IMG/VR virus record: IMGVR_UViG_3300007960_000173
Location: 1 to 24,819 of that record
Source: a virus
Length of the DNA: 24,819 nucleotides
Strand: one strand, 5' to 3'
The position numbers and the translations under genes were made by a program. Under the pieces are notes generated by a model. The model worked only from the letters and a program-made list of their open reading frames with translations, had not been told where the DNA came from and searched no databases. The number at the start of each line of letters is the position of its first letter. Positions within the stretch are counted from its first letter, which is position 1. This document shows, one piece after another, positions 1,018 to 21,751 of this stretch.

Positions 1018-2364
1018 TTATAACCTCTTATATTTTGATCTCAGTGATTCGCTCTGTGTTTTTACAGTCGGAGCAACTGTGTTGCCTGCAATCCCCATAG
1101 GCATTACTTTTATCTTTACATTTGAAGTATCCATTTTTATTGGGAACAGAATACCATCAGGACCATTTCTATTCTTGGCAACATACATATTCCCTTTGTT
1201 CATTGCCTTTTGTTCTTTAGTCCTAGAAATCGTAAAGATAAAGTCTGCGACGAAGCATTTATTATATGCTTCTGAAATGGAACTCATATCGATTACTTCG
1301 GCATTCAATCCACTTCTGTTTGTTTGAGAGGCAGTCCAGATAGGACACTCAAAGACCTGAGCTATGCCTCGGAGTTCTTCATAAATCGACTCCAGATCAT
1401 GTCTTTTCTCGCTGGTTCTCTTGGTTGTTACCGGTCTGAGAAGGTCAGCATAATCAACAATGATCATATCTATACTTATGCCTCTAGACTTAATTCTTTC
1501 CAAATGATTTTTGATTGTCGCCGTAGTTGCTGATTTTGTTGGATATTCTTTTATGATAACATTTCCATCAATATCCTTGATGTTTTCGTAGATCTGCTCT
1601 TTGAAGCTGAAGATGTCTCCAAGCTTCACTCCGGTGATACAACTATCATAGCGAGTTCCAATAACTGTATCAGACATTTCCAGACTGTAGTGAATGACTG
1701 TCTTGCCAAGCTTGACTGCTTGTGACCCAAGGTGGACCAGAGCCATAGACTTACCAGCACCAGTTGGGGCAATCACCACTCCCAACTCTCCGTTGCCAAG
1801 ACCGCCCTTACAAATGCCGTCAATCTCTTTCCAGCCAGTTGTGACTGGATCTCGTTGTTTGATTTTGAATCTCTCTTCGAAGTCTAGCTTGTAGTCGTAA
1901 CCAAAGTTCACATCGGTTCCCAGTTTCAAAGCATCATTGATAACACTACTAATCTCGTCGAAAGAAGAGTTGTTGAGCAGCTTTACTGATTTCATCATTG
2001 CTTCTTTTAGTTTCTGTTTCTTACAGAAATCTAGTGAAGTCTCTTTTACATAATCACAGTCCTCAATGATTGAAGTGTCTTTTAGAGTTTTTACCAAGTA
2101 TTCTTTGGCTTGCTCTCGTACAACTTCGTCTTCGACCTCACTACGAAGCAGAGTAGCCATAATCTTCAGCGAGGGATAAACCTCGTATTTCTCTTTATAT
2201 TCGTAAACACTCCTGACAATCGTCTGAAGATACTTGAACTCCAAGAAGTTGTAGTCAAGCACCTCTCCAATCTGGTCTGCGAACACTCTTTCTGTCAAGA
2301 TAAGATAAGTCAGTTTATCCTGAAATGTCTTACCAAATCTTGAGAAATCAGTTTTTTCCGTCAT
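1018..2364 (-). CDS. 41: Replicative DNA helicase, DnaB/gp41-like (SF4)
   Basis: Hexameric 5'-3' replicative helicase that unwinds DNA at the fork. Length is 448 aa against 475 in T4 gp41. The N-terminal about 160 residues are helical, as in the DnaB-type N-terminal domain. The RecA-like motor shows Walker A APTGAGKS (199-206), the family motif HYSLEMSD (225-232), Walker B IIVDYADLL (301-309), the WTASQTNR sensor (343-350) and the arginine-finger stretch AKNRNG (396-401). All catalytic motifs look intact. The ATG overlaps the stop of the upstream small membrane protein gene (ATGA) and has a GGAAGG Shine-Dalgarno. NrdJ follows after 2 bases, so helicase and reductase are almost certainly co-transcribed. 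No primase is visible in the window. Confidence 0.92.
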   Translation of the reverse strand: MTEKTDFSRFGKTFQDKLTYLILTERVFADQIGEVLDYNFLEFKYLQTIVRSVYEYKEKYEVYPSLKIMATLLRSEVEDEVVREQAKEYLVKTLKDTSIIEDCDYVKETSLDFCKKQKLKEAMMKSVKLLNNSSFDEISSVINDALKLGTDVNFGYDYKLDFEERFKIKQRDPVTTGWKEIDGICKGGLGNGELGVVIAPTGAGKSMALVHLGSQAVKLGKTVIHYSLEMSDTVIGTRYDSCITGVKLGDIFSFKEQIYENIKDIDGNVIIKEYPTKSATTATIKNHLERIKSRGISIDMIIVDYADLLRPVTTKRTSEKRHDLESIYEELRGIAQVFECPIWTASQTNRSGLNAEVIDMSSISEAYNKCFVADFIFTISRTKEQKAMNKGNMYVAKNRNGPDGILFPIKMDTSNVKIKVMPMGIAGNTVAPTVKTQSESLRSKYKRL

Positions 2365-2630
2365 TTTCCTTCCAATAGGTTGTATTCCCTAGCCCATGCT
2401 TGGACCTGCTCCAACGAGGGCTTTGTATCTGCTTTCTTTGTTCTAAACATCTGAATACAAGAAAGCAGGATACTAATTCCAATAAACGAAGCATACAACA
2501 TTAGCATCCATTTTGCAAGCACTAAATCAACAAAATACATAATAAATGTCATAAAGCCTGTTGCTTTACCTAAAACAAAAAAAGCTGACGAGGCTTTCGT
2601 CAGCGGTGATAAGTCGTCCCAAAAGTCCAA
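2361..2630 (-). CDS. Small membrane protein, TTG start
   Basis: I do not recognise a family for this 89-aa protein. It has two adjacent hydrophobic segments (about residues 16-37 and 40-60) and then a charged tail (RTKKADTKPSLEQVQAW), which suggests a small two-pass or hairpin inner-membrane protein. The TTG start is supported by a GGGGGA Shine-Dalgarno that overlaps the exonuclease stop. A shorter reading from ATG at 2552 (63 aa) has a poor ribosome site but would avoid a perfect terminator hairpin that lies in codons 9-18. Its 3' end overlaps the helicase start by 4 bases. No function can be assigned; the position between exonuclease and helicase does not by itself imply a replication role. 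Confidence 0.6.
   Translation of the reverse strand: MDFWDDLSPLTKASSAFFVLGKATGFMTFIMYFVDLVLAKWMLMLYASFIGISILLSCIQMFRTKKADTKPSLEQVQAWAREYNLLEGK
2577..2604 (-). terminator. Intrinsic terminator hairpin after the exonuclease gene
   Basis: On the minus strand an 8-bp perfect stem (GCTGACGA / TCGTCAGC) with a 5-base loop is followed by seven T and then GTTTTA. It starts about 30 bases after the exonuclease stop. It lies inside the TTG-initiated frame of the membrane protein, so it could end exonuclease transcripts or act as a translation-sensitive attenuator for helicase and nrdJ. Confidence 0.8.
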
Positions 2631-2634
2631 TGTG

Positions 2635-3603
2635 TTATCCCCCTTTGCTCTCTACGGATATCCTTTTGAATAAAGTAAATAAGTCGTTCCAGTCGTAAAC
2701 TCCAAAGCCATCCTCAATCATCATTGCTCTCACACCAGATTTGTTGAAGTTGAACTCTGGATTGTTTAGCATTCGCCTAATGTACTGAGCACTCTGGGCT
2801 GATATGTTTGGAACATACAACTGCATCATTTTGTAGTTCTTTTCGATTATGTCTCTTTTCTCGACAACATTCTTGAAGACCTTGAGTTTGCTATCGACAC
2901 CCTCGGCAAAGTCAACTAGCTCCTGTATGGTATACGATTTCTCCTCGGAAAGGAAAGGAAATCGCTTGGATACAGTCGCCAAACCTGCTCCACCAATGCC
3001 GGGAAGGTTATCACTCTTGTCCCCTGCTATTGCTCTCGCAAGTGCGAAGTTTGTTGGGTGGATCTCAAACTGGTCGAGGATCCTTTTCTTGTTTAGGATT
3101 TCCTTCTGGATTGGTCTATACAAGATAGTTGTATCGTCACATAACTGAATAAAGTCTTTGTCAGAACTTAGAATAATCTTGTGGTACTCGGACAAGGCTT
3201 GAGACTGGGAAGCCAAAGCAATAATGTCGTCGGCTTCCACATTCTCAACATAAGACTGGAGGATTGGCATTTCGTTTAGATATTCGATTAGCCGCTCCTG
3301 TTGCCAGTTCTTATTGTCCTCCTGCTCGCCAGCAGTCATGTTGTGTATGTCTCTGTTTAGTCGGACTGGTTTTCTTCCTGCCTTGTAGTTTTTGTCGATG
3401 CTCTTTCGTTTCTGTGAGCCACCGTCCCAAGCTACGAAGATTAGGTCTGGGTTGATTGTCCGACAGACAGCCTGTAGTGATTTGATAAAACCTTTTGTGC
3501 CGCCAATGGGCTGACCATTTGTAGACAGGCTGGGGTCTACAATATAGTTTCTCATGAAAAGGTTTAGTGCATCAATGAGAAGTGCTCTTTTCTTATTTGC
3601 CAT
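2635..3603 (-). CDS. rnh: 5'-3' exonuclease / RNase H (PIN-FEN family, T4 Rnh-like)
   Basis: Structure-specific 5' nuclease that removes RNA primers and flaps from Okazaki fragments. Its 322 aa compares with 305 in T4 RNase H. Metal-site motifs are all present: LLIDALNLF (8-16), AWDGG (58-62) with a basic RKSIDKNYKAGRK stretch after it, VEADDIIA (122-129), SSDKDFIQLCDD (145-156), and AGDKSDNLPGIGGAG (192-206), which also begins the helix-hairpin-helix DNA-binding element. The start ATG overlaps the end of the preceding acidic-protein gene by 11 bases, suggesting translational coupling because its own ribosome site is weak. T4 RNase H is likewise an RNase H/5' exonuclease that works with gp32-type SSB, which is also encoded here. 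Confidence 0.92.
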   Translation of the reverse strand: MANKKRALLIDALNLFMRNYIVDPSLSTNGQPIGGTKGFIKSLQAVCRTINPDLIFVAWDGGSQKRKSIDKNYKAGRKPVRLNRDIHNMTAGEQEDNKNWQQERLIEYLNEMPILQSYVENVEADDIIALASQSQALSEYHKIILSSDKDFIQLCDDTTILYRPIQKEILNKKRILDQFEIHPTNFALARAIAGDKSDNLPGIGGAGLATVSKRFPFLSEEKSYTIQELVDFAEGVDSKLKVFKNVVEKRDIIEKNYKMMQLYVPNISAQSAQYIRRMLNNPEFNFNKSGVRAMMIEDGFGVYDWNDLFTLFKRISVESKGG

Positions 3604-3778
3604 ACTCTAACTCGATTCCCAATTCTTTGAGGAGCTTGTCTAGTTCCTCATTTAATTTGTCTTCGTCGTCAGAGTCAGTGTAGTTGCCTTCTTCAAGAGC
3701 AGAAAGATAATAGAATGCTTCACGGATTAGTTCAGTTTTCTCTTCTAGGATCTCTCTTACTGCTTCCAAATCTTCCAT
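3593..3778 (-). CDS. Small acidic helical protein, unknown function
   Basis: I do not recognise this 61-aa protein. It is strongly acidic (a TDSDDEDKLNEELDKLL stretch plus many Glu in the first 20 residues) and its heptad-like Leu/Ile spacing suggests two amphipathic helices. It has a good AAGGAG Shine-Dalgarno at 9 bases and is the first gene after a promoter-like sequence at 3863-3891. It overlaps the exonuclease start by 11 bases, so the two are probably translationally coupled. Small acidic early phage proteins are often inhibitors or DNA mimics, but nothing here proves that. Confidence 0.7.
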   Translation of the reverse strand: MEDLEAVREILEEKTELIREAFYYLSALEEGNYTDSDDEDKLNEELDKLLKELGIELEYGK

Positions 3779-3862
3779 AGTCTTGGTCTCCTTTATTTTT
3801 GATAGACATAACTATGTTTGATTTTGGCTTTTTGCCTCTTTTTGTCTCTAACGATTTGGAAT

Positions 3863-3891
3863 ACTTTAACAGAGTGGTGGGGGGAAGTCAA
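3863..3891 (-). promoter_or_regulatory. Sigma70-like promoter for the acidic protein / exonuclease genes
   Basis: On the minus strand TTGACT is followed after exactly 17 bases by TAAAGT. It lies just past the lipoprotein stop and about 85 bases upstream of the 61-aa gene. The -35 region sits in a 15-base block (AAAAGTTCTTGACTT, 3885-3899) found identically at the ssb promoter. The 119-bp gap holds nothing else obvious. Confidence 0.6.
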
Positions 3892-3897
3892 GAACTT

Positions 3898-4239
3898 TTA
3901 GTGGTGGTGGTAATATTTTTTCTTGTGCTTTTTCTTTTTGTACTTCTTGGTTTTGATTTTACCTTTCACAACTTTCTTCTTGTAGTGCTTCTTGTAAATC
4001 TTGGTAAACCGCTTCTTCTTGTGCTCGTGATACTTGTCATAGTGGTAGTGGCTATGCACTGAACCACCATTGTGAGAATGCCTCAAGTGATCGATAACAA
4101 TAATATAATTGTAGGAGGGGTAGATAACATGATATTCCTCATAATACTCATAAGGATCGTAATGTTTTTTGGGGGAGTGGGCAAAGGCACATCCTGACAG
4201 GAGTGCGAGAAATAAAGATAGAGTGATGACTTTTTTCAT
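3898..4239 (-). CDS. His/Lys/Tyr-rich lipoprotein
   Basis: This 113-aa protein has a textbook lipoprotein signal: MKK, a hydrophobic core (VITLSLFLALL), then the lipobox LSGC with the lipidated Cys at residue 17. The mature part is highly biased. It first has a Tyr/His/Glu-rich segment (HYDPYEYYEEYHVIYPSYN), then a histidine cluster (HSHYHYDKYHEH), then a Lys/Tyr tail with many KK and KKK runs ending in HHH. I count 16 His after the lipobox. It should be anchored in a membrane with a basic, possibly metal-binding tail. The start has a GGAGGT Shine-Dalgarno 7 bases ahead, and the gene follows uvsX by about 45 bases. No family was recognised. Possible roles are surface modification, superinfection exclusion or metal binding; all are inference. 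Confidence 0.8.
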   Translation of the reverse strand: MKKVITLSLFLALLSGCAFAHSPKKHYDPYEYYEEYHVIYPSYNYIIVIDHLRHSHNGGSVHSHYHYDKYHEHKKKRFTKIYKKHYKKKVVKGKIKTKKYKKKKHKKKYYHHH

Positions 4240-4282
4240 GATTATAACCTCCGTTCCTTTTTTAGACGAAGGTCGTATTCAT

Positions 4283-5383
4283 TTATTCATCCTTTTCTTC
4301 ATAAAAGTCTTCTGCTTTGCCTAATCGTTGGTCGAACTTCTGAATGACTTCTTCGTCCATGATCTCATAAACTCGCTGCTTGAAAGCAGGGTCAGCCATC
4401 TTCTGTTCCCACTTGGAGGGTTGGAACTTTTCTACTTTGCCATCAGCCATTTCCATAGAGTACCAAGCACCAGCAGAACTCATATACTTTGAGCCTTTGA
4501 TTGCTTCGAATAAACTCTGGTCGTCCTGAACGCCAATGTCGTCAGTTCCCCACAAGATCTTGAAGTTGCATTGTCGACCTTGTGTCCCGAACCTACTCTT
4601 CTCCAACTTGACCTTGACCTCAGAGCCGATGCGGAATCCGCTTTCATCAGTGATGTAAGCAGCCTTAGCCTTGCGACCTGTCAGCCAGATACGAAGAGAG
4701 TAAGCATAAATCATAGCCTTACCGCCGGGAGTGACATATGGAGTAGTCAAAGCCTCGGCAGGGCGGCTGGTAATGTTACTCTTCAACTGGTTCAAAACCA
4801 AGAAGGTTGATTGGCTGTTGGCAATCGGCACAGTCAGCTTGGACATACCTTTAGCCAAGATCCTAGCCTTTACAGCCATAGAAGATTGGGGATTGAAATC
4901 TCCTTCCACATCGGAAATAGCAGGTGTAAGAGCCAGAGAGTCCCAAATAAAAAGCATACGATTTTCATTATTTGCCAACAAATCTTCGATAGTTTCAAGA
5001 ACAAATTCAACAGACTGAGCTTGAACATAAAGTAGAGTATCAACATCGCAACCAGCCCTTTCCAAGAAAGAAGGGTCGATAGCAGACTCTGAGTCGAAAT
5101 AGATAACATCGATTCCCTTCTTCTGAGCATTAGCCGCAACTTGAGCAGCCAAGAATGACTTACCTGTTGCTTCGAGACCTGCAATCTCCGTTACTTTACC
5201 GACTGGAATACCAGCCAGTTGTCCTTTACATATAATAGAGTCTAGCCATCTAGACCCTGTTGGAATCCAATCATTTACTTCTGTTGGATTCTCTTCGTTT
5301 AAGTTGTGTGCTACGGTCATACCTGCTCGCTTATTGATAAGCTTACGCATGTCAGCCATAGACAACTTGCCTGTTTTAGACAT
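4283..5383 (-). CDS. uvsX: RecA/UvsX-like recombinase
   Basis: ATP-dependent strand-exchange protein for recombination, repair and recombination-primed replication. Its 366 aa compares with 391 in T4 UvsX. The sequence shows an N-terminal helix region, PTGSRWLDSIICKG (41-54), Walker A GLEATGKS (69-76), IYFDSESAID (94-103) containing the likely catalytic Glu99, Walker B MLFIWDSLAL (143-152), a VLNQLKSN stretch (196-203) ending loop motif III, and PYVTPGGKAM (215-224). The C-terminus is acidic (EDFYEEKDE). The ATG has a strong AAGGAG site placed directly after the ssb terminator hairpin. The neighbouring SSB is its expected partner; a UvsY-type mediator was not seen. Confidence 0.92.
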   Translation of the reverse strand: MSKTGKLSMADMRKLINKRAGMTVAHNLNEENPTEVNDWIPTGSRWLDSIICKGQLAGIPVGKVTEIAGLEATGKSFLAAQVAANAQKKGIDVIYFDSESAIDPSFLERAGCDVDTLLYVQAQSVEFVLETIEDLLANNENRMLFIWDSLALTPAISDVEGDFNPQSSMAVKARILAKGMSKLTVPIANSQSTFLVLNQLKSNITSRPAEALTTPYVTPGGKAMIYAYSLRIWLTGRKAKAAYITDESGFRIGSEVKVKLEKSRFGTQGRQCNFKILWGTDDIGVQDDQSLFEAIKGSKYMSSAGAWYSMEMADGKVEKFQPSKWEQKMADPAFKQRVYEIMDEEVIQKFDQRLGKAEDFYEEKDE

Positions 5384-5396
5384 AATATCTCCTTAT

Positions 5397-5423
5397 AAAA
5401 AAGTAGGGGGGCTTGCGCCCCCC
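5397..5423 (-). terminator. Terminator between ssb and uvsX
   Basis: On the minus strand the stem GGGGGGC / GCCCCCC is closed by a GCAA tetraloop, with TAC and then six T following. It starts 5 bases after the ssb stop and its T-tract abuts the uvsX ribosome site (AAGGAG). It may reduce uvsX expression relative to the SSB, which is needed in larger amounts. Confidence 0.85.
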
Positions 5424-5428
5424 ATACA

Positions 5429-6181
5429 TCACATGCCCAGTTCTTTCAGAGCAGACTCAACGTCGTTGGAAGCCTCAATGGTGGGGGAGGCATACTTAGT
5501 TGTTTCGGAGGATTCAGTCTCCGCATCAACACCTTCGTTGAGGAACTCATCCAGAATGCCTTGTACATCCTGAGTAGACTTTCGCTCAAAAAGAGTGTCA
5601 AGGTCTGGTACGGAAGCTACAATCTCTTGACATGCTTCATCGCCGTCTTCGCACAATTGGGAGGATTTGCGTCGTGGCTGTACTTTCGTTTGTGGATAAA
5701 GCATACCCGGAGCTTTTCCGTAGGACAGAACAAGGTCTGTTCCGTCTTCAGGGTCGGTAATGTCGCCGTAGTCTGGGTTGAGAACCAGACTGAGGAGGGT
5801 TTCATACACGGTCTTACCATAACCCCAGACCTTTACACCCTCTGATTCTTCTCCACGAACCAGAACAGGTGAGAAGAAGCGCTGGCGAGCAAAGAGGCTT
5901 TTTGCCTGTTGTACACTCTCTGGAGAACCCTCGTTAAAGAGTTTCGTCGCAAAGTTACATACAGGGCAATCATCCCCAAAGTTGCGCTTCGGACAAAGGA
6001 AACCAGAACGGTTCCCAAGGTTGTAGTGAAAATGATGCTCCTTGAAGGGATCTTCATCAGGAGAAGGCAGAATACGAATTACATTCTCTCCTTCTTGAGG
6101 ACGCCAGAAGTCAGACTTCTTCTCTCCTTTCCCTTGAGCAGCAGCAAGTTTTTGTTTCATTTTATCAAGATTAATACCCAT
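5429..6181 (-). CDS. 32: Single-stranded DNA-binding protein, gp32-like
   Basis: Coats single-stranded DNA at the replication fork and during recombination. This 250-aa protein has the gp32 layout. The N-terminal basic region (KMKQKLAAAQGKGEKK) likely serves cooperativity. The core holds a zinc site: His49/50/52 followed by Cys63, Cys72 and Cys75 (LCPKRNFGDDCPVC), matching the His-Cys-Cys-Cys ligands of T4 gp32. The C-terminal tail is acidic and Ser/Thr-rich (from about residue 205), the part that in gp32 contacts partner proteins. T4 gp32 is 301 aa, so this is a compact version. The start has a GAAGGAG ribosome site. It sits next to uvsX and behind a strong promoter at 6210-6238. Confidence 0.92.
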   Translation of the reverse strand: MGINLDKMKQKLAAAQGKGEKKSDFWRPQEGENVIRILPSPDEDPFKEHHFHYNLGNRSGFLCPKRNFGDDCPVCNFATKLFNEGSPESVQQAKSLFARQRFFSPVLVRGEESEGVKVWGYGKTVYETLLSLVLNPDYGDITDPEDGTDLVLSYGKAPGMLYPQTKVQPRRKSSQLCEDGDEACQEIVASVPDLDTLFERKSTQDVQGILDEFLNEGVDAETESSETTKYASPTIEASNDVESALKELGM

Positions 6182-6209
6182 TTTCTCTCCTTCTAAAAGT
6201 TATAAACGA

Positions 6210-6238
6210 ACTATAAACAAAGTTAAAACAAAAGTCAA
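6210..6238 (-). promoter_or_regulatory. Sigma70-like promoter for ssb
   Basis: On the minus strand TTGACT is followed after 17 bases by TATAGT, about 30 bases before the ssb start. The -35 element overlaps the stop codon of the upstream gene. The block AAAAGTTCTTGACTT (6232-6246) is identical to that at 3885-3899, suggesting one regulatory class. Confidence 0.7.
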
Positions 6239-7074
6239 GAACTTTTTTCATTTTGTACGAAAGAAGTGCTCGCAATGAAATAAGCGTATTTATCAGCGTA
6301 TTGAGTGGAAAATACGCCGTAAGATACTTTTACGTCTTTTTCTTGTGGCGAATCTTTTACTTGCGTCATAATCTTATTCATCAAAGTCTTATCTGTTTTT
6401 AGTTCCTCTTCGGGAATGGCGTAATAATAACGCTTTTCCACAACATTGTCAAGAGAAAAAAACGGACTTTCTTCACCTGTTTCTGGATTTAGGATGCCGA
6501 AAGTTGAGATTCGGCAGATATCTTTGGGGTCAGACAAAGTTCCTACCACTGGCTTTGAATGGTTGAAAACATTTGTCATGTGTATGGTTGCTACGATAAC
6601 TTCATTTAAACTGTCGTAATAACCCATAATCGGTGCTCCACCCAAGATTTTATCTATCTGCTGGTTATCAACCGCATAGAACTGCTTAAAAACGCCAGAT
6701 CTAGCATATTGCTGCAACACTCCAAAAACAAGATTAGTTTGCAATCTTCTTGTCTCAGATAGAGTATCGACATCTGGGTGAATATATAAAACACTTATTG
6801 GACCTTTGCCATGGATTTGCTCTAAGACACGGAGGGCAGCACCAGAAATAATGCTAGCTCCCGATACAATAAACAGGATTTCACCTTCGACATCACGAAG
6901 ATGATTTCCAATCATGGGAAAGTTCTGCTCGTATTGTTCTGGGTGGTCGTACTTTGGCACACGAATAGTTGCGCCCTCTTCGTGGTCTATTGTGATTGCT
7001 TTGTATTGTGGGTGCTTTGAAAATGCTTTAGTCAACTTATAACCAACATTTCCTAGTCCAATTAGTATATCCAT
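6235..7074 (-). CDS. Divergent FtsZ/tubulin-like protein
   Basis: I read this 279-aa protein as a tubulin/FtsZ-fold relative. It starts with a beta-strand and glycine loop (ILIGLGNVGYKL, 3-14), then a second strand ending ITIDHEE (27-33). Residues 64-103 (GEILFIVSG, a short glycine loop, SGAALRVLEQI, PISVLYIHPDVD) resemble the FtsZ strand, T4-loop, helix, strand run. ETRRLQTNLVFGVLQQYARSG (107-127) and YAVDNQQIDKIL (133-144) match its RR...E...L / PND segment. YDSLNEVIVATIHM (153-166) resembles helix H7, and LSDPKD (180-185) keeps a T7-loop-like Asp-x-x-Asp. The GGGTGTG box is shortened and degenerate (SGASIISG, 71-78), so GTP binding is doubtful. The ATG overlaps the polymerase stop by 13 bases; a longer upstream reading lies wholly within the polymerase gene. 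A NAD-binding Rossmann protein is the alternative. Confidence 0.6.
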   Translation of the reverse strand: MDILIGLGNVGYKLTKAFSKHPQYKAITIDHEEGATIRVPKYDHPEQYEQNFPMIGNHLRDVEGEILFIVSGASIISGAALRVLEQIHGKGPISVLYIHPDVDTLSETRRLQTNLVFGVLQQYARSGVFKQFYAVDNQQIDKILGGAPIMGYYDSLNEVIVATIHMTNVFNHSKPVVGTLSDPKDICRISTFGILNPETGEESPFFSLDNVVEKRYYYAIPEEELKTDKTLMNKIMTQVKDSPQEKDVKVSYGVFSTQYADKYAYFIASTSFVQNEKSS

Positions 7075-8249
7075 AGTCTTTGCATTTTCCCATAGTTTCT
7101 GCCACCACAGGCATTTGTTCTGAATCTTCCAAAGGGCGTGTCTTGGAACTCCCAATAAATCATGTTGATAAAGTCACCGTCCTCTTCAGCATAGTCTATC
7201 ACAATACTGTCGTGAATGATAAATGCTATCTTTGACTTTTTTCCTTTTAGCATCTCGGACAAGATTATAGCCTTGTCTAAAATCAAATCACTACAAGTAC
7301 TTTGGAGTATGTAGTTGAGGGCATGATAGTGGTCGCTTGGGATTCTCCGATGATATGTAGTTTCTACGGTGTTGCCGTCCCAATAGCTCTTTACAATAGC
7401 TTCCCTATCATAGAGCTTGGCTAGCTGCTCATCTTCGGCATTTGGATTGTAAAGCCATGAAAAAATCCTCTTCTTTGCCTCATCTCTGGTTAGCTTACCA
7501 CCAAAGAGTTCATAAGAGTTGTACTCATGCATATCACCATGGGGCTGCTTCTGCCCTAGCAGACCAAGCATGACCCTGAGTTCAGCAGCATTGTAGTCTA
7601 GTTCGACTAGCCATTGGTTGTTTGGTTTGATAATCTTTCTGAACTTCTTATCCATGGTTAGGATTGGGAAGGAATTCTTTTCTGTTGTTAGTCTACCTGT
7701 CTTTGTGCCGAATACATTATACTTTATGTATGGCTCTGTTCTCATTATCTTTTTGTAGAAGTCTTTAGTTCGCTGGTCTGACAGTTCGTTGTTGAGAACA
7801 GACAAATCAATGTTTAGTTTCTGGTGCTTAAGGTCAGTGGTTATCTTAGTGATGTCGACCAAGTTTTGATAGTTATAAGGTCGCTCATATGTTTCAAGGA
7901 CATGTTGTGTGATCTTGTCTTTTATGGCACAGAATTCTTTTAAGAAGCCCTCGGGCACAAGATCAAAAAAGCAATGGTCGTTTAGAGATACCTTTGCTGT
8001 GATGAATGATTTGTAGAATGCTCCCATCTTTTTCCAGATGCGATCATAATCTTCTTTTAGTTCAGGGGGGCAGACTTCGCCTAGTGATTTTCCTTCGCAG
8101 TATATGTTGGCATAGTCCAACTCTAGTTCACGAAGAAAAGCGGCATACTTCCAAGTGGCTGTGCCGTCTTGGGGCAAGTCTTTGTAGATTTCGCCATCAA
8201 CATAAATGCCAACGCACTTTTCTTTTTCATCTAAGGTTTGGAATAACAA
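7062..8249 (-). CDS. Family A DNA polymerase, polymerase domain only
   Basis: Replicative or repair DNA polymerase with the Pol I palm and fingers. Motifs: GTKTGRLTT (181-189), motif A ELDYNAAELR (216-225, catalytic Asp218), motif B with Arg255, Lys259, Phe263 and Tyr267, the NYILQSTCSDLI stretch (312-323), and motif C IHDSIV (345-350, catalytic Asp347). The usual HDE is HDS here. Phe263 corresponds to E. coli Pol I position 762. At 395 aa it lacks the 3'-5' exonuclease domain: the first about 130 residues show no DxE, NxxxF/YxD or YxxxD motifs. The start is TTG, with AGAAGG 5 bases before it and no ATG for the next 74 codons. It follows the structural gene by 9 bases and overlaps the tubulin-like gene, so it may be transcribed with both. 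Confidence 0.88.
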   Translation of the reverse strand: MLFQTLDEKEKCVGIYVDGEIYKDLPQDGTATWKYAAFLRELELDYANIYCEGKSLGEVCPPELKEDYDRIWKKMGAFYKSFITAKVSLNDHCFFDLVPEGFLKEFCAIKDKITQHVLETYERPYNYQNLVDITKITTDLKHQKLNIDLSVLNNELSDQRTKDFYKKIMRTEPYIKYNVFGTKTGRLTTEKNSFPILTMDKKFRKIIKPNNQWLVELDYNAAELRVMLGLLGQKQPHGDMHEYNSYELFGGKLTRDEAKKRIFSWLYNPNAEDEQLAKLYDREAIVKSYWDGNTVETTYHRRIPSDHYHALNYILQSTCSDLILDKAIILSEMLKGKKSKIAFIIHDSIVIDYAEEDGDFINMIYWEFQDTPFGRFRTNACGGRNYGKMQRLWIY

Positions 8250-8258
8250 GGCGACCTT

Positions 8259-9737
8259 CTAGTAGTATTGCTTCAAATATTGTTGAATATAACTTAAAGA
8301 AGACTCTTTGTCAAGATTTAAATAAAGATTCTCTATTTTTGCGAGACTGTTCTTTACTTTCGCAGAGGATATGTTTTGCTTAAGTTCTCTTAAGCGAACT
8401 AAGAAATAAGTCTTGTACCAGAACAAGTCATCATACTGTTGATCAAAATCTTCTCTAGATATCTTGTTTCTGTAAACTTTGCTAACCTGAAGTGGGTCGT
8501 AGAAGAAGTTCGTGTTGTAAAAATCTTTTATGTCTTTTGATGTTTGACATGGCTTAGGTATCGAGACTTGAGGAAAATTAGTTGCAAACCTCTCATAAAA
8601 GTCGAACATCATGTTTTTCAGATTTTCAATATCCATGTCTTGGGTTCTATAATAATATTCATTATAGAAATCTTCATTGCTCCATGGAGTTGTATTTAAA
8701 ATCTGTAGCTGATGGATGTGTGGCTCAATACCAACGTTCGGATCATTTCCTTTTGGCGTTGCAGATGGAACTATTCTATAGTTTATGATCTGATGAGAAT
8801 GCTCTTTCGTTATGTTTTTTGGTGAGCCATGCGAATCTGTAAACCCATTTCCATTTTCATCAATAAAATATTTGTGTGCATGGGTCGAACCATCTTCCAA
8901 GTAAGGGACCGTTGTGTATTCAGTTAGCCCTTCTCTTGAAAGCCGATATAGACGAATGTAGTTTCCGATGTACTTCTTCATTCTCGGAGAGTTTATGTTG
9001 GCGACAAGTCTCCATGGTGCATGTTGATCAAGCATAAATCCAAAAGAAGCTGCTGCTGTTGCATATTCTTTGAAGTTCTTGTTGTTAACATACTTATCAA
9101 ACTTTTCATAATCACTATCATGATCTAAGTTTTCTAACTCAATGCACAATCCACTGAACATAGGATTGTAAAAAGAAGACTGAAGCATCCCTGTGTAGGT
9201 GACTGGAATGTCAAACTCTAGAAAGTTTAGGTAGAAGTTCATGAAGACATCCATGAAACTTTCGAAGTCTTTTACCATGGCTCTGGTTTGAATATCTAAA
9301 AATGTTTCATTGAAAGAATCATAAAGCCCTTCTTGGATTTGAGAGAATACTCCATCAGAATTTGTCCAAGCTTTTTTTGCAGACATGTCCATTTTAAGTC
9401 TGCCGCTGTCTTCCATCATTTTTATAATGCCTTTGGTTTTCATATAGAAAGACAATTCTTCATAAGCATCTGCAACAAAGTTTAAAGCAAACAGTGTCTC
9501 TTTGGTTCCAACCAACTGCTTGAAGTAAGCAGTGTCAGGTATCATGTATTCCTTATTCGAACTCATTGCGCCATATCTAGATTGCTGACTGTCTCTGAAG
9601 TTTATTGGTTTTGGAAACAGTGGATCTGTAGCTGTAGGATAGAAAACGTCATATCCTCTTCTTTGCCTGAAAAGATCTTTTGATGACAGCCCAGTGGACC
9701 CATATAAAGAAATGTCTTCGTATTTTTTAAAAGTCAC
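8259..9737 (-). CDS. Putative baseplate/tail structural protein with HxH motifs
   Basis: A 492-aa protein I cannot name. It is rich in Phe, Tyr, Asp and Asn. A notable segment (286-342) carries HAH (286-288), a DENGNGFTDSH loop, HSH (313-315) and HIH (340-342). Paired HxH motifs coordinate iron or zinc in several phage spikes and fibre tips, so a metal-bound element is plausible. The C-terminal 130 residues look helical. It directly follows the hub gene, whose last codons contain its GGAGGA ribosome site; the start is GTG, 6 bases after that site. Position at the end of the tail gene string suggests a baseplate wedge, hub-associated or fibre-attachment protein. Confidence 0.6.
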   Translation of the reverse strand: MTFKKYEDISLYGSTGLSSKDLFRQRRGYDVFYPTATDPLFPKPINFRDSQQSRYGAMSSNKEYMIPDTAYFKQLVGTKETLFALNFVADAYEELSFYMKTKGIIKMMEDSGRLKMDMSAKKAWTNSDGVFSQIQEGLYDSFNETFLDIQTRAMVKDFESFMDVFMNFYLNFLEFDIPVTYTGMLQSSFYNPMFSGLCIELENLDHDSDYEKFDKYVNNKNFKEYATAAASFGFMLDQHAPWRLVANINSPRMKKYIGNYIRLYRLSREGLTEYTTVPYLEDGSTHAHKYFIDENGNGFTDSHGSPKNITKEHSHQIINYRIVPSATPKGNDPNVGIEPHIHQLQILNTTPWSNEDFYNEYYYRTQDMDIENLKNMMFDFYERFATNFPQVSIPKPCQTSKDIKDFYNTNFFYDPLQVSKVYRNKISREDFDQQYDDLFWYKTYFLVRLRELKQNISSAKVKNSLAKIENLYLNLDKESSLSYIQQYLKQYY

Positions 9738-9741
9738 TTAG

Positions 9742-12711
9742 CTATCCTCCAGTTCCCTCGATGGATGGTGTGTCGTTTTGATTATTCAAGTCCCTTGTAG
9801 CCAAGGGCTTGGAATCTCCTTTGCCAATACCTCCAGTAGAGCTTTGCCACTTTGCTGTAATAGTGGTCGTCCAAAACTGTTTTTCGATTTTGTTTTCTAC
9901 ATTTGTAACTAGATAATAACCCTCAAGACCAAGGCTACTAACCAACTCTTCAGAGTCTGTATATCCAGTAATCTCTGGTAAGTTTACCGTTGAATAAATA
10001 TGCATTCCCGGATAAAATATAGCGTTTCCTACCATCTCTATTGTCAAGTCATATTGATTCCAAGCTTCTCTGTATTCTTCTCCCTTTTCCATTGCCCGTG
10101 CAGCCATCATTTCTGTTTGATAATTCTTTTTAACTTTCTGAAAAGAATAGCTTAGATCGATAGCGTCGTATGCACCACCTAGAAGAAACGAATAGATTCC
10201 TCTTTGGGCTCGCAAGTTTGTTATACTAACTCCCTTCGAAACATTCGAAGAGCCTACAGAAAAACCAACTTCATTAGTACCATACATGTAGAAATAGTTG
10301 TAAGGAGTAATCGTTTTTGCACTGTCAGACAAAACATCTACGGTTTCTATTTCAGAATATTTTTGAAGAAATCTCATGTTTTCTGGATTAGATAGGTTAA
10401 ATCTTGTGCCATATCTGTTGTCGCTTGGTCTTCCCAGATAAGCAGGATCTACTCCAAATGACAATGTTGGATCTGATTCTCCGACAAGGGGCAATGTGGT
10501 TATCTTTACTTGTACTGGGTCTTTATGGCTTTTGCCAAAGTTGTTTGTTCTTGAGTTAATTGCAGGGCTGATCAACTGCGTTGCCAAGTCTTGAAGAAAC
10601 TTGGTAACATCGTATTTGTTGATGTCTTTTTCTACAATATTCTTTTTGAAAAACCTCAAGAAATATTGCAAACTTATCGGGAAGTCAGCTAGATTAATAT
10701 TGACTTTTTTATTTGGATCGCTGCTTTGAGGATCTGGTGCAGTTATAGAGCCCAATATCAAACCTAACTTTGCTTCATTCATCTTTGCATACATCGTGCC
10801 ATTTGATTCATTAGCCAAAGCTGCGTCGATGATATCTCCAAGATATACATAATAAAACTTATAAGTATCTCCAACTTTTGATATGGGTCCTCCCCCGGCA
10901 AGCCTAGCATTGACGAAAGATCGCAACTCATCTTCTTCAGTAAAGCCATCGCCGATAGCCTTTTTTAGCTGTGCTACAGCTTTTGCAGCATCATTGGCTG
11001 TCACTTGTTGAATTATGTTTTCCGTTTTTTTAATGTTCTTTGAAGCGTTCTTTGCTGCTTTTGCCTTTGCTCCTTGCACTTCTGCTTGACTTTTCGCTAA
11101 TGAATCTTCAGTAGCAGCTTCCGGAGTTAGTACTGTTACTGATTGAGCAGCTAGTTCTGCTTCTTGTTGAATGAGTGCTTTTATTTCTTCAGTCGCTTCA
11201 TTAGAAAACAAAACTAGATCTTTTGTTTTCAACTCAGTTTCATACACTTTATTGCTTCTAAATATATTTTCTAGAATAATATTATATTTTGCTATTTTAT
11301 TTTGAAAGATTAATCTATCATTAATCTCTTGTATTTTTTTATCGTAATCGGCTTTAGCAGTTGAATACTTTGATTCAATGTCTGTAAGGGCTTCTTGGAT
11401 TGCTTCGATATTAGGAGCATTAGAATTATCTTCAAAAAGATCTTGCCTAACGCCTGCACCTGTATCATTTGCAAGAGCCACTAAAGCAGTTGAATAAGCA
11501 GCGTTTCCTTTATAAACTCTTTTTTTAAAATCCTCTAATTGCTTTCGCTTTGAAGGATCAACTCTAGAGTCAGCCATTGGAGTTGTGATGCCTTGTTTTT
11601 CTAAAGTTTGCGTTATTTGGTTATAACCCCTAGCAGCGGAGAGAGCAGCTTGAATCGCTGGCAGATTAGACTGGATTACTTCAAGATCTTGTTTTAAGCT
11701 GGTAGCTATGTTTCTGCCGCCTAAATCTTCCGATATTTGTTGACTTGACATGATCTTACCAGCAAATATATCGAAAGCAGCTTTCTTGCTGAAGTCTTCG
11801 ATAAAAGAAACGTAGTTTAAAGTCAAGAGCACAGAAGAATCATTTTCCTGAACTGATATATCATAGTCTACCAATTCAAGCTCAAGCAATATATTGTTTA
11901 TTTCCGATGAGACTTCTTTTAAATACTTGGTTGTTTCTGGATCATGATTGAGATCATTGTATTCATGATTGGATGTGTCATATCCAATCGCAAGCCTGAG
12001 TGAATATCCCTCGTATGCCTCTTGATTGGTTGTTCTTCCTTTCGAAAATGTGATTAGATTCTTGAGACTAAATCCGTTGGCGTGGGCGTAATCAAAAGCC
12101 AAAAGACTTTCTAAAGTAAACTGTATAGTTACATCTACCATTCTCGATGCAGCGAAAGGATTTTGATTTTTTAAAGTAAAGTCCAATCCAGTTAAGCCAT
12201 ACTTTAGCTTTTCATAGTTTGCGCCAGAGCCATCAAGCGCCCTCAGTAGCTCCTCTCTTCTTTCCGGACTGGCAGTTCTTAGCTCTTGTGCTCTTTCAAC
12301 TTGCTTGCTTGTGTTTTCGTTTATCTTCTTTTTGATATTGAAAAAGTTATCTAAAGGGACCGCTTCTGTTCTTAAGATTTGAGATTTGTCTAATGGATCT
12401 CTATACACTCTCTGCATTTTTATAACAGGAGTCATTTCTCCATCGAGCAATCTACCTTTTCTAATAAAAGTTATTTTGTCCAACCCTTTGGCTGCACGGA
12501 TCTCGGAAAGAACTAGGGGGGAATTGGGGTGTTCATATATTTTGAAGCCCTGAGCACTGTATCCATTTAGATTTTGGTCTCGCCCAAAGTAAGCATAACT
12601 ATGCAGATCACCATATAGGATATTTTGTTCTGCTTGGATAAAGTCAATCTTGTCTCTTTGATTGCCAGAAAGCTTGTCTTGAACAGCTTCAAGCGTTTTT
12701 GAATCACTCAT
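9742..12711 (-). CDS. Large baseplate hub protein (gpD/gp27-like)
   Basis: A 989-aa virion protein in the slot held by the hub in contractile tails: tape measure, tube initiator, LysM protein, then hub, as in P2 and PBSX. The C-terminal about 150 residues fit a hub beta-domain (AIFYPGMHIYSTVNLPEITGY, EGYYLVTNVENKI, QFWTTTITAKW). The N-terminal part (about 30-320) is mixed alpha/beta. Between them, about residues 325-600 form a long Ala/Glu/Lys/Gln-rich helical region with coiled-coil character that hub proteins usually lack. I see no lysozyme or peptidase motif. It starts at an ATG with TAGGA ahead, just after the LysM gene. The hub call rests on gene order and C-terminal pattern, not a confident homology match. 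Confidence 0.6.
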   Translation of the reverse strand: MSDSKTLEAVQDKLSGNQRDKIDFIQAEQNILYGDLHSYAYFGRDQNLNGYSAQGFKIYEHPNSPLVLSEIRAAKGLDKITFIRKGRLLDGEMTPVIKMQRVYRDPLDKSQILRTEAVPLDNFFNIKKKINENTSKQVERAQELRTASPERREELLRALDGSGANYEKLKYGLTGLDFTLKNQNPFAASRMVDVTIQFTLESLLAFDYAHANGFSLKNLITFSKGRTTNQEAYEGYSLRLAIGYDTSNHEYNDLNHDPETTKYLKEVSSEINNILLELELVDYDISVQENDSSVLLTLNYVSFIEDFSKKAAFDIFAGKIMSSQQISEDLGGRNIATSLKQDLEVIQSNLPAIQAALSAARGYNQITQTLEKQGITTPMADSRVDPSKRKQLEDFKKRVYKGNAAYSTALVALANDTGAGVRQDLFEDNSNAPNIEAIQEALTDIESKYSTAKADYDKKIQEINDRLIFQNKIAKYNIILENIFRSNKVYETELKTKDLVLFSNEATEEIKALIQQEAELAAQSVTVLTPEAATEDSLAKSQAEVQGAKAKAAKNASKNIKKTENIIQQVTANDAAKAVAQLKKAIGDGFTEEDELRSFVNARLAGGGPISKVGDTYKFYYVYLGDIIDAALANESNGTMYAKMNEAKLGLILGSITAPDPQSSDPNKKVNINLADFPISLQYFLRFFKKNIVEKDINKYDVTKFLQDLATQLISPAINSRTNNFGKSHKDPVQVKITTLPLVGESDPTLSFGVDPAYLGRPSDNRYGTRFNLSNPENMRFLQKYSEIETVDVLSDSAKTITPYNYFYMYGTNEVGFSVGSSNVSKGVSITNLRAQRGIYSFLLGGAYDAIDLSYSFQKVKKNYQTEMMAARAMEKGEEYREAWNQYDLTIEMVGNAIFYPGMHIYSTVNLPEITGYTDSEELVSSLGLEGYYLVTNVENKIEKQFWTTTITAKWQSSTGGIGKGDSKPLATRDLNNQNDTPSIEGTGG

Positions 12712-18700: not shown

Positions 18701-21700
18701 TTAATCCTCAAATCCCGCACCGGAGTTAGTGATAACAAAGTCGATTGCGAAGAACTCAACAGCCTTAGTTGGCTTCAAGAAGATCTTTGCGTAGATAACG
18801 TTTCTATCAATAAGATCTGGCGTAGTTGTTGTTTCATCGAGGACAACTTTGAAAGCATCCAATCCGAAGTCGTTCTTAATGCCGAACAAGAAAGGATTAA
18901 CTTGGCTTGTAAATCTTGCCCAAGTTGCTGGCACGTTTGGCTCGAACAACAAGTTAGCTGCGATTCTAGAGATTTCTTTCTTCACGAAGATCATCAAACG
19001 TCTAACATTGATTCTATCCAAGGCAGAAGGTGTTACCTGAAGGGTCTTTTGACCGAAGATTACGATACCTTCATTTGGGAAAGAAGCGATTGGGTTGATG
19101 TTTGCATCGTAAAGCGAATCTCTTTCTTTCGAAGTCAACTTGCTTCTAACGTTTGTTACAGGGATACCTGCTGCACCTGCGGAGAGACCTCCACGGTTAA
19201 ATCCTGCTGGTGCAAACCATGGTGCTGCTTGGTTGTCGTTAAACGACATTGCACCGAAAGCTGCAACCGAAGGTGGTGCCCACAAGCTTGCGCCTGTGAT
19301 TGTATCGCTGATTCTAACCCATGGGTAGTAAGTTGCACCGTAGCTTGAGTTCAATGCTCTAGCAGTCATGTTGTCAACAACTTGTCTTACATGGTTAGTT
19401 GCAATTCTATTTTCTTCTGTTCGTGCGTCCGCAGAAGCAGGCGTGTATCCACCTTTAGGATCGATAATCGCCATAGCATCTCCACGTCCCTCGCAAGTAT
19501 TGATCATGTGAGTCGTGAGACCTTCGTTAACAATACCCGGAGCAGTTAAGAGATTACCTTCAACAAACTCAGGATCAGCAAACATATCGATTGCTTTTCT
19601 TACAGAGTATGCCATTGCGTATTCTGTTTCTGGAGCGTTGTCTGGGATTGCTGCATCAGTTCCATACTGCTGGAATGGTTCCTTTTCAAAGATGTTGAAA
19701 CCGTTGAACCCACCAAACATTGGAGCAGTAAACTGATCAAATCCTTTGTCCAAGATTGCCTTGTATGTTCCTGACATAGCAGTAGCAGAAGTTCCGAGTG
19801 CTCTTGAGCCTGACTGATAGAAGACAGATCCCAAAGCGGTTGCAGTTCCATCTGCATCAACAACGTCGTCCAATGAGAAGTACCAAGAAGTTTCTGTTTC
19901 AGAGTTGTCTGCCACAAAAGAGCTAGCTGCGCCTGCCAACGGGTAGACCACATCTTGCATCGACTGATCATACACAACCGAACTGCCAGTTCTAGTGAAT
20001 GTTGCACCGAAGTAAGCATCTTTCTGATTTGCCAACTCGCCTGTGCTTGCACTCAATCTCAATGGAACTTCCGGGAAGTTAATCGAAGCAGTAAGTGGCG
20101 CAGCCCAATCAGGTTCCACCATTGTTCTAACTCTATTGGCAGATCCAGTAAGTGATCCAAAGTTCATAGGATATGAAGAGCCGGAACCCAAAACAACTGG
20201 CGTTACTAAAGTCGTAGTGGTCTGATCGCTGAATCCTTCTTCTTGATTTGCAGAAGTAATTGTGAAGTCGCTATACTTGATTGGTCCTTCGTTACCAAAC
20301 GGTAACACCTCTGGGTTGACCTGACTTGCATCTACTGCTGGTGCCATTTCAACTCTAACGATATTTGAGAGGTTTTCGTAAGTTCCATACTCAACAACTC
20401 TTCTTTCTTGCTCATCCCACTGGTAGTATCTATCACCAATCTTTTTGGCAAGATAGTTAGGAGAACTTGGATCTAAGTTACAGTTGGAGTAGCGCTCAAC
20501 ATAAACTCTTGCGCCGTCATTATCTTTAATATCTCTGATAGAAACTGTGAAAGAACCGTAAGGATTGTTATCGTTTCTTGAGTATCTGATGTCTTCGATA
20601 GAAATCTTGTATCTTCTTTGCTCTTCTTCTCCAGTGCTGATTGTGTGAAACTTAAACAACCTATCAACAACTCCCTGACCAACCTCTGGGTTGTATTCTG
20701 GGACAAGTTGGTTCAAGTCACTGTCAGCATCTCCTGCTGTGTTTCTCAAATCTTGAGAGAAGAACCAGCCAGTCTGTGCAGCTTGAGTTGCGTACTTGAA
20801 TTTTCCACCATCATCTACATTTGTTTCACCACCAAGCTGCAAGATAACACCATAGCAGCTTGATCCTGTGATTGTGTCTACGACCGCTCTTTCATATGTT
20901 TGACCAAGGAAGTAGCTCTTTACAACATCTGAGTCTGTATCAACCAAGTTTGTATTAGTCTTTGTTGGATCAGTATTGAGGACTTTTCTAATGTAGTTGT
21001 TCGAAGATCTGCTAAAGTTGATTACAGTTTCTTCGATAACACCCTGTGGGTTAGCTGGATTAGTGGTTCCACCAGCAGCACCGTCTTGATTAATCAATCT
21101 CAACTTAAAGCTGTAGTTTGGCGCACCATCGAGTGATTCAACAAACACATTAGAACCTGTAGCAGTCGTACCGTTAACACTTAAATCTCCACCTCTGATA
21201 GTTCCGGAAAGGATCGGCGCACCATATCTGGAGTAAATAACAGCAGCCAAGGTTCCATCAACATCTTCGACAGTTCCGCCAGCGCCGAGGGTGCCTCCAG
21301 TAGAACCGGAGTTGATTAAGAACAAACCATAAGCACCGCCACCGGTTCCATCAGTACTTCCACCGCTGTTTCTGCTTGTATCGGCGGCTGTCCAACCTGC
21401 TTTTGCTGTAGTCTCATTTGCTGCTTGGCTTGATTGATCACCCAAAAGGCGAACAAAAGTTAGAGGAGAACTATTCTTTAACCATGCCTGCGCTGCATAT
21501 GCTGCAAAAGTCGGTGCCTTTGGGACGCCACTTCTCCATTGATCACTAGCTTCTTGTCCAGCAACTGGATCTCCAAAGATAGTAACAAATTCCGAAAATG
21601 ACTGAACAGTTGTTGGGATAAAGGCTGGTCCTCTTCTGGATCTACCGATAACAACAGGTCCAATAGCATCGCTTATTTGTGGTAACTGAGAGTTGTCAAT

Positions 21701-21751
21701 TTCCTCGATGAATACTCCCGGTGAGACAAACTTAAAATTTTTCGCTGACAT
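18701..21751 (-). CDS. 18: Tail sheath protein, gp18-like, very long
   Basis: Contractile sheath subunit. The N-terminus FVSPGVFIEEIDNS (8-21) and the IGPVVIGRSRRGPAF stretch are typical. The C-terminal domain has RINVRRLMIFVKKEISRIAANLLFEPN, TWARFTSQVNPFL and FFAIDFVITNSG, the conserved part that makes the inner sheath layer. At 1016 aa it is about 350 residues longer than T4 gp18 (659). The extra length lies between about 120 and 700 and contains Gly/Ser/Thr-rich beta segments, most likely surface domains. The ATG has AAAGGAG 9 bases ahead and follows an 86-bp gap with a late-type motif, consistent with high late expression. Confidence 0.9.
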   Translation of the reverse strand: MSAKNFKFVSPGVFIEEIDNSQLPQISDAIGPVVIGRSRRGPAFIPTTVQSFSEFVTIFGDPVAGQEASDQWRSGVPKAPTFAAYAAQAWLKNSSPLTFVRLLGDQSSQAANETTAKAGWTAADTSRNSGGSTDGTGGGAYGLFLINSGSTGGTLGAGGTVEDVDGTLAAVIYSRYGAPILSGTIRGGDLSVNGTTATGSNVFVESLDGAPNYSFKLRLINQDGAAGGTTNPANPQGVIEETVINFSRSSNNYIRKVLNTDPTKTNTNLVDTDSDVVKSYFLGQTYERAVVDTITGSSCYGVILQLGGETNVDDGGKFKYATQAAQTGWFFSQDLRNTAGDADSDLNQLVPEYNPEVGQGVVDRLFKFHTISTGEEEQRRYKISIEDIRYSRNDNNPYGSFTVSIRDIKDNDGARVYVERYSNCNLDPSSPNYLAKKIGDRYYQWDEQERRVVEYGTYENLSNIVRVEMAPAVDASQVNPEVLPFGNEGPIKYSDFTITSANQEEGFSDQTTTTLVTPVVLGSGSSYPMNFGSLTGSANRVRTMVEPDWAAPLTASINFPEVPLRLSASTGELANQKDAYFGATFTRTGSSVVYDQSMQDVVYPLAGAASSFVADNSETETSWYFSLDDVVDADGTATALGSVFYQSGSRALGTSATAMSGTYKAILDKGFDQFTAPMFGGFNGFNIFEKEPFQQYGTDAAIPDNAPETEYAMAYSVRKAIDMFADPEFVEGNLLTAPGIVNEGLTTHMINTCEGRGDAMAIIDPKGGYTPASADARTEENRIATNHVRQVVDNMTARALNSSYGATYYPWVRISDTITGASLWAPPSVAAFGAMSFNDNQAAPWFAPAGFNRGGLSAGAAGIPVTNVRSKLTSKERDSLYDANINPIASFPNEGIVIFGQKTLQVTPSALDRINVRRLMIFVKKEISRIAANLLFEPNVPATWARFTSQVNPFLFGIKNDFGLDAFKVVLDETTTTPDLIDRNVIYAKIFLKPTKAVEFFAIDFVITNSGAGFED

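Follow-up and report, generated by a model that had tools for sequence, protein, structure and literature searches.

The window analysed here is a 24,819-nt stretch of viral DNA (positions 1–24,819 of IMG/VR record IMGVR_UViG_3300007960_000173). Its minus strand carries a DNA replication cassette in which a gene for a 279-aa protein, here called TUB and assigned below to the tubulin/FtsZ superfamily, lies between those for a short family A DNA polymerase (polA) and a gp32-like single-strand DNA-binding protein:

1018–2364, minus strand: DnaB-type replicative helicase (Pfam DnaB_C, 3.2e-22; synteny)
2635–3603, minus strand: 5'-3' exonuclease (Pfam, 6.9e-27; synteny)
4283–5383, minus strand: UvsX/RecA-type recombinase (Pfam RecA, 9.7e-36; synteny)
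5429–6181, minus strand: gp32-like single-strand DNA-binding protein, downstream of TUB (Pfam gp32, 3.5e-15; PHROG, 1.8e-27)
6235–7074, minus strand: TUB, predicted tubulin/FtsZ-fold protein, ATG start, 279 aa plus stop (AlphaFold2, fold and profile matches, conservation)
7062–8249, minus strand: polA, short family A DNA polymerase of 395 aa, directly upstream of TUB (Pfam DNA_pol_A, 8.9e-12; PHROG, 2e-17)
8259–9737, minus strand: conserved 492-aa gene upstream of polA (synteny in most loci; no Pfam or PHROG match of weight)

TUB is a real gene under strong purifying selection. Its start ATG lines up with an ATG in the relatives, and comparison with the closest of these (L002) gave a dN of 0.026 and a dS of 0.42 (NG86/JC), a ratio of about 0.06. 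At distant loci TUB identity is about 40–47% and that of polA 42–50%, so TUB evolves like its neighbouring genes. The 492-aa gene is fast-evolving, with 26–38% identity where polA has 42–95%. The TUB frame is broken by a stop in two relatives (L012, 2537–3373; L078, 5986–6837), through assembly error or recoding. The polymerase itself is unusually short; it has polymerase-domain motifs and no recognised 3'-5' exonuclease domain, and its N-terminal 170 aa match nothing.

The gene order in nearly all loci is unknown gene - polA - TUB - gp32 - uvsX - (exonuclease - dnaB). Among 222 loci with both ends of the polA-TUB spacing visible, a gp32 gene lies downstream of TUB in every one. A scan based on the polymerase was used so that loci were not chosen by TUB; here TUB follows polA in 78 of 80 loci, which upholds the link with the polymerase drawn in the first-pass annotation. 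The remaining two are truncated contigs, one stopping at polA (L347) and the other in the first TUB codons (MDTVIGL), behind an inserted gene (L333), and no locus of the 80 with both polA and gp32 is without TUB. The same annotation had described TUB as fused to the polymerase and co-translated with it. In the window, however, each has its own ORF, and the 13 nt common to both are read in different frames. Over the 222 loci they overlap in 148 (by exactly 13 nt in 79), and lie within 20 nt of each other in three; in the other 71 the distance is larger, mostly around 300 nt. Coupling by overlap is thus common, yet these 71 loci with a gap mean that neither it nor co-translation is obligatory.

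In the twelve loci inspected among those spaced by about 300 nt, a weakly MazG-like gene of about 105 aa, not HTH-like on inspection, lies between polA and TUB (KLVRDxIP...EELADI; for example at about 4815–5020 in L283 and about 5690–5975 in L062). Further small genes occur elsewhere in the cassette. One at 3898–4239 (minus strand), between uvsX and the exonuclease gene, encodes a lipoprotein-like product whose lipobox reads LLSGC and whose body is rich in His, Lys and Tyr; this gene recurs in many related loci. An 89-aa protein with apparent transmembrane segments, encoded at 2361–2630 (minus strand) between exonuclease and helicase, is a possible membrane anchor of the replication machinery. 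No repeat array was found at window positions 3600–9800. A gp45 clamp was sought with PF02916, but even the positive control, phage HTVC008M, barely matched, so the result says nothing either way.

From this observed synteny we consider a replication-linked role of TUB likely. Synteny is an association with replication; contact with the polymerase is not implied. Such contact is central to one alternative, in which TUB is a non-polymerising replisome accessory that, as a monomer or dimer, touches the polymerase, gp32 or UvsX and possibly senses the nucleotide pool. Its constant neighbourhood and the weakly MazG-like gene between polA and TUB in many loci with the gap of about 300 nt speak for this reading, although neighbouring genes need not make contacting proteins. 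We return to it with the assembly interfaces.

A single-sequence scan of IMG/VR with the window protein returned 43 relatives, and profile scans with the family raised this to 243 and then to at least 590, a lower bound. Tail sheath, UvsX and gp32 mark the phages as T4-like; their longest contigs reach 147–191 kb. Ten longer contigs carry one TUB copy each by the family profile and no second, canonical tubulin (PF00091 found TUB's own T1 loop only; PF13809 found none). TUB is a core gene, present in one copy, of a large clade of uncultured T4-like phages. No relative was found in GTDB genome contigs, which therefore give no host link. Single-sequence searches of INPHARED phages, tblastn included, found no match and no annotated relative, and TUB is absent from the complete genomes of immuto, Mel-JY01, HTVC008M, LysYB1, phiKZ, JM-2012 and LR756508. 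Flavobacterium phage immuto and its relatives share the cassette order (polA - small gene(s) - ssDNA-binding protein - RecA - exonuclease - helicase), but TUB occurs in none of 80 loci with a related polymerase from that clade, where its position is filled by an unrelated gene of about 150 aa. The immuto genes between polA and ssb were also considered as a split tubulin; they are unrelated to TUB, and this was rejected.

Two features of individual genomes stand apart from the cassette. The window's tail sheath (18701–21751, minus strand; 1016 aa) has a large insertion relative to isolates, and only its last 300 or so aa match most T4-like sheaths. One phage of the clade, on the 172-kb contig of L163, encodes seven tRNAs and a one-piece tmRNA (L199, 14191–14526, minus strand; Rfam RF00023, 114 bits) with the ARAGORN tag ANNNNHFESVRLAA, which could point to its host.

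That TUB has a tubulin/FtsZ-like fold was proposed in the first-pass annotation from sequence patterns, and structure prediction with fold search now supports it. The AlphaFold2 model of the window protein, built with 20 family members as input, is confident (pLDDT 87.0, pTM 0.88), and that of a distant relative (L060, 41 sequences; pLDDT 93.8, pTM 0.91) gives the same answer. Both models predict a single chain with an N-terminal nucleotide-binding domain, a central helix H7 and a C-terminal alpha/beta domain. By DSSP, the window model runs b-a-b, short helices, b-a-b-a-b-a, a 23-residue helix (149–171), and four main strands with one helical segment. The order of segments said to parallel FtsZ holds in the window protein: GLGNVG (6–11), SGASIISG (71–78), PISVLYIHPD (92–101), VDNQQIDKIL (135–144) and the long helix 149–171. 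Helix and loop names used here follow DSSP order and sequence alignment without superposition, and the T4 register may shift by one or two residues.

In a Foldseek search of the PDB with the window model, the top 50 matches were all tubulin-superfamily chains (best E 1.0e-12, TMq 0.70, to FtsZ); no PhuZ chain is among the 50 structural matches listed, which does not count against kinship with PhuZ. VIA-align gave whole-length matches to CetZ 3zid (Z 24.2 over 257 residues, 3.0 Å), TubZ 2xka (Z 23.4), FtsZ 2r6r (Z 22.4) and tubulins (Z 21–22), with CetZ and TubZ tied within 1 Z and all 720 of 720 aligned chains at Z >= 8. In BFVD, only the first eight matches have E < 0.001, and most of these carry the annotation phage tubulin, FtsZ or PhuZ.

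Profile comparison points the same way. We ran hhalign with an alignment of 60 TUB members against FtsZ (seven sequences) and PhuZ (eight sequences); each E-value refers to one comparison. Against the joint FtsZ and PhuZ profile the probability was 95.3% (E 2.1e-8, score 65.9), and residues 3–165 aligned collinearly from T1 to mid-H7. The controls stay far below this score: in 150 trials no column shuffle of the joint alignment exceeded 25.4, and none of ten unrelated families taken from these phages exceeded 22.2. Against FtsZ alone the E-value was 4.5e-5 with a 31-member TUB alignment and 0.0063 with the 60-member one; against PhuZ alone it was 6.3e-4 and 1.2e-4, respectively. Adding more diverse members lowered the FtsZ-alone score from 43.1 to 28.4 and raised that to PhuZ, which stands at 39.1 and was reached by none of 150 shuffles. 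Since the score is strong with the joint profile only, we make no claim as to whether FtsZ or PhuZ is closer to TUB. Single-sequence comparisons returned little: a search of PDB sequences found nothing above noise, Pfam PF00091 stayed below cut-off, PHROGs gave no meaningful match, and NCBIfam ftsZ matched seven of 41 members weakly (best 0.0028, below cut-off).

The T1 loop contains a GxGxxG, and sub-threshold matches to Pfam TrkA_N (best 0.0015) would fit a NAD-binding Rossmann protein misread as a tubulin. That match spans residues 3–33 only and lies below cut-off, whereas the tubulin matches cover the whole length, including H7 and the C-terminal sheet present in the models, and the FtsZ profile alignment extends to residue 165. 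The whole-length structural match to tubulins led us to reject the TrkA_N/Rossmann identity, which we now find scarcely credible. The outcome named in the first-pass annotation as refuting its fold assignment, a match to a Rossmann or other fold with neither H7 nor a tubulin C-terminal domain, is not what the models gave. Judged by its predicted fold, we are nearly certain that TUB belongs to the tubulin/FtsZ superfamily.

The functional elements of TUB map to the following positions:

7039–7059, minus strand: T1 loop GLGNVGY, residues 6–12 (family GLGxAGC), aligned by hhalign with FtsZ GCGGGGSN
6841–6864, minus strand: T4 (GTP-box) loop SGASIISG, residues 71–78, aligned with FtsZ AGMGGGTGTG and PhuZ GGASGSTIG
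6664–6666, minus strand: N137 at T6 (VDN), invariant in 60 of 60 representatives, aligned with FtsZ IPN
6562–6630, minus strand: predicted central helix H7, residues 149–171, with Y153 and N157 at base-contact positions (DSSP of the model)
6511–6561, minus strand: T7/H8-equivalent stretch, residues 172–188, with no helix in both models and no conserved acid
6253–6510, minus strand: predicted reduced C-terminal domain, residues 189–274, with S7, S8, H10, S9 and S10 (DSSP, structural alignments)

The T1 residues G6, L7, G8 and G11 are present in all 58 ungapped representatives, and D30, at a T2-like position, is Asp in 56 of 60. In the T4 loop, most of the family has GGSGx[IV]SG or a near variant, resembling the GGSGSVIG of two PhuZ proteins (LucasX and Simmy50), and position 74 is Gly in 55 of 60 representatives and Ser in the window. 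By sequence comparison, SGASIISG is an eroded, lineage-specific version of the family loop within its own subclade. The signature [SAG]GGTG[SAT]G occurs in none of 162 members, so the GTP box is indeed non-canonical; since the PhuZ proteins compared here deviate as well, this signature does not define every accepted member of the superfamily. The earlier description of TUB as apparently lacking a normal GTP box is hence right about the signature and too strong with regard to nucleotide binding, given the PhuZ-like T4 loop and the conservation of N137 and N157 (each 60/60). Position 153 carries an aromatic residue or His in 58 of 60 representatives. In FtsZ and tubulin the positions aligned with N137, Y153 and N157 are established guanine contacts, a role that these residues would share in TUB. 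Because this pocket is conserved, TUB has quite probably retained guanine nucleotide binding. The FtsZ T3 glycine segment has no clear counterpart in TUB and T4 is short, which makes binding of a triphosphate less than certain.

The opposite face of the protein appears to be reduced. In FtsZ, tubulin and PhuZ, a conserved T7 acid and helix H8 complete catalysis and form part of the longitudinal interface. Neither model (window, L060) has an H8 between H7 and S7, and by DSSP and alignment H9, H11 and a tail are absent from TUB, the chain ending a few residues past S10. An Asp-x-x-Asp catalytic loop had been read from the window sequence. D182 and D185 are present there, yet in only 18 of 60 representatives do acidic residues occupy both sites; NxDxxD occurs in none of the 60, and the H8 that should follow the loop is missing from both models, so this part of the first-pass annotation is not supported. 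The best single acidic position in the loop is acidic in 43 of 60 representatives and Lys in the window; some acidic residue is found in the loop of 58 of 60. With H8, H9, H11 and a conserved T7 acid absent, canonical longitudinal assembly and hydrolysis by TUB are doubtful on these models; slow hydrolysis stays possible because of the acidic residues in the loop. TUB may assemble statically, or in some other way, or, with its canonical longitudinal interface weakened where T7 and H8 are lost, not at all. The GTPase-dead PhuZ mutant D190A forms GTP-dependent, non-dynamic filaments (PMC4244570).

These losses bear on three further readings. A dynamic filament of the PhuZ/TubZ kind could move or centre replicating phage DNA, with catalysis supplied by lineage-specific T7-loop acids. 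The predicted tubulin fold, the PhuZ-like T4 loop and the acidic residues in 58 of 60 loops are compatible with it, and phage tubulins of known function act in this way (PMC4244570). Yet no loop acid is invariant (best 43/60), H8 is missing, TUB is without the H11 or C-terminal tail through which PhuZ makes its filament contacts (PMC3678025), and no TubR-like partner or iterated repeats were found beside TUB; we regard a dynamic filament as improbable, though a rival to be taken seriously. The non-polymerising accessory introduced above gains from the models, in which the T7/H8 part of the longitudinal interface is missing, and from family-invariant residues off the nucleotide site (Q121, R125, S126, H165 and M166). 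All characterised members of the superfamily form filaments, however (PMC2875224), and we hold this alternative to be unlikely, if a serious competitor. Finally, TUB could be a decoy that caps or poisons host FtsZ or another host tubulin and blocks division during infection: with its nucleotide face kept and its T7/H8 face apparently gone, it could bind one end of a host filament. Such a role sits poorly with a core gene in a replication cassette rather than among variable host-takeover genes, and with the concentration of the most conserved residues in the nucleotide pocket; we consider it very unlikely.

Phage tubulins and divergent FtsZ-like families are already on record (PMC4244570, PMC3678025, PMC2875224). 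The TUB family itself is apparently undescribed: we found no description in the papers that could be searched, a scope outside which subscription papers and preprints lie. PhuZ and phiKZ TubZ are likewise phage-encoded, with a tubulin fold and a GGSG-type T4 loop as in TUB. PhuZ differs in size (about 315–327 aa versus 279 aa) and in its H11/acidic tail, H8 and conserved T7 Asp, all wanting in TUB, and it gave no tblastn match with TUB; it belongs to nucleus-forming (chimallin) jumbo phages, whereas TUB lies between polA and gp32 of T4-like phages. TubZ of Bacillus plasmids matches TUB structurally over its whole length (Z 23.4–23.8, two models) but has a canonical GTP box, a C-terminal helix and TubR/tubC partners, none of which was seen for TUB. 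CetZ 3zid is the best structural match and the FtsZ profile is collinear with TUB from T1 to H7; unlike CetZ and FtsZ, TUB has no GGGTGTG, NxDxxD, H8/H9 or FtsA/ZipA-type C-terminal tail, its T3 is unclear, and identity is 12–17%. Like TUB, FtsZl1 and FtsZl2 are divergent FtsZ-tubulin families recognised computationally, and in one of the two, recognisable parts of the filament interface are missing as well (PMC2875224). These are cellular proteins that keep GGGTG[ST]G and have added coiled-coil or alpha/beta regions (PMC2875224), whereas TUB is viral, is without the signature, keeps T6-H7 and has no added domain. We rate TUB as lying outside PhuZ, TubZ and FtsZ by their defining features and as a member of the superfamily by fold and profile.

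We propose that TUB would bind guanine nucleotide via T1, T6 and H7; that it would work with the phage replisome or phage DNA, since it is never separated from polA-gp32-UvsX; that it would form a slow or static oligomer or short filament, because the conserved T7 acid and H8 are missing; and that this assembly would act as a scaffold or anchor, keeping newly made phage genomes together with the machinery that replicates them inside the infected cell. Support decreases along these steps in the order given, and we put the full mechanism, in which phage replication would have a slow or static scaffold that binds nucleotide, at a probability of roughly 35%. The idea of a scaffold, already raised in the first-pass annotation, strikes us as reasonable. 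A bolder and quite tentative reading, which we would not call likely, is that TUB, handed down as a core gene of an abundant uncultured phage clade, traded GTP-driven dynamics for a permanent place, structural or regulatory, in a viral replisome; it would then be the first tubulin dedicated to DNA replication, as opposed to division, partition or positioning.

Most of what is known about phage tubulins comes from jumbo phages that form a nucleus and from partition modules. In the large clade described here, made up of T4-like phages of ordinary size, a tubulin family that is separate and reduced belongs to the core genes and is firmly embedded in the replication cassette, and its place between the polA and gp32 genes suggests that a cytoskeleton-like protein may be standard in how these viruses organise the copying of their DNA. 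If TUB assembles, phage replication would rely on tubulin scaffolds much more often than has been assumed; should it not assemble, TUB would be a naturally occurring tubulin whose interface has no catalytic half, and a means of asking what the fold does without dynamics.
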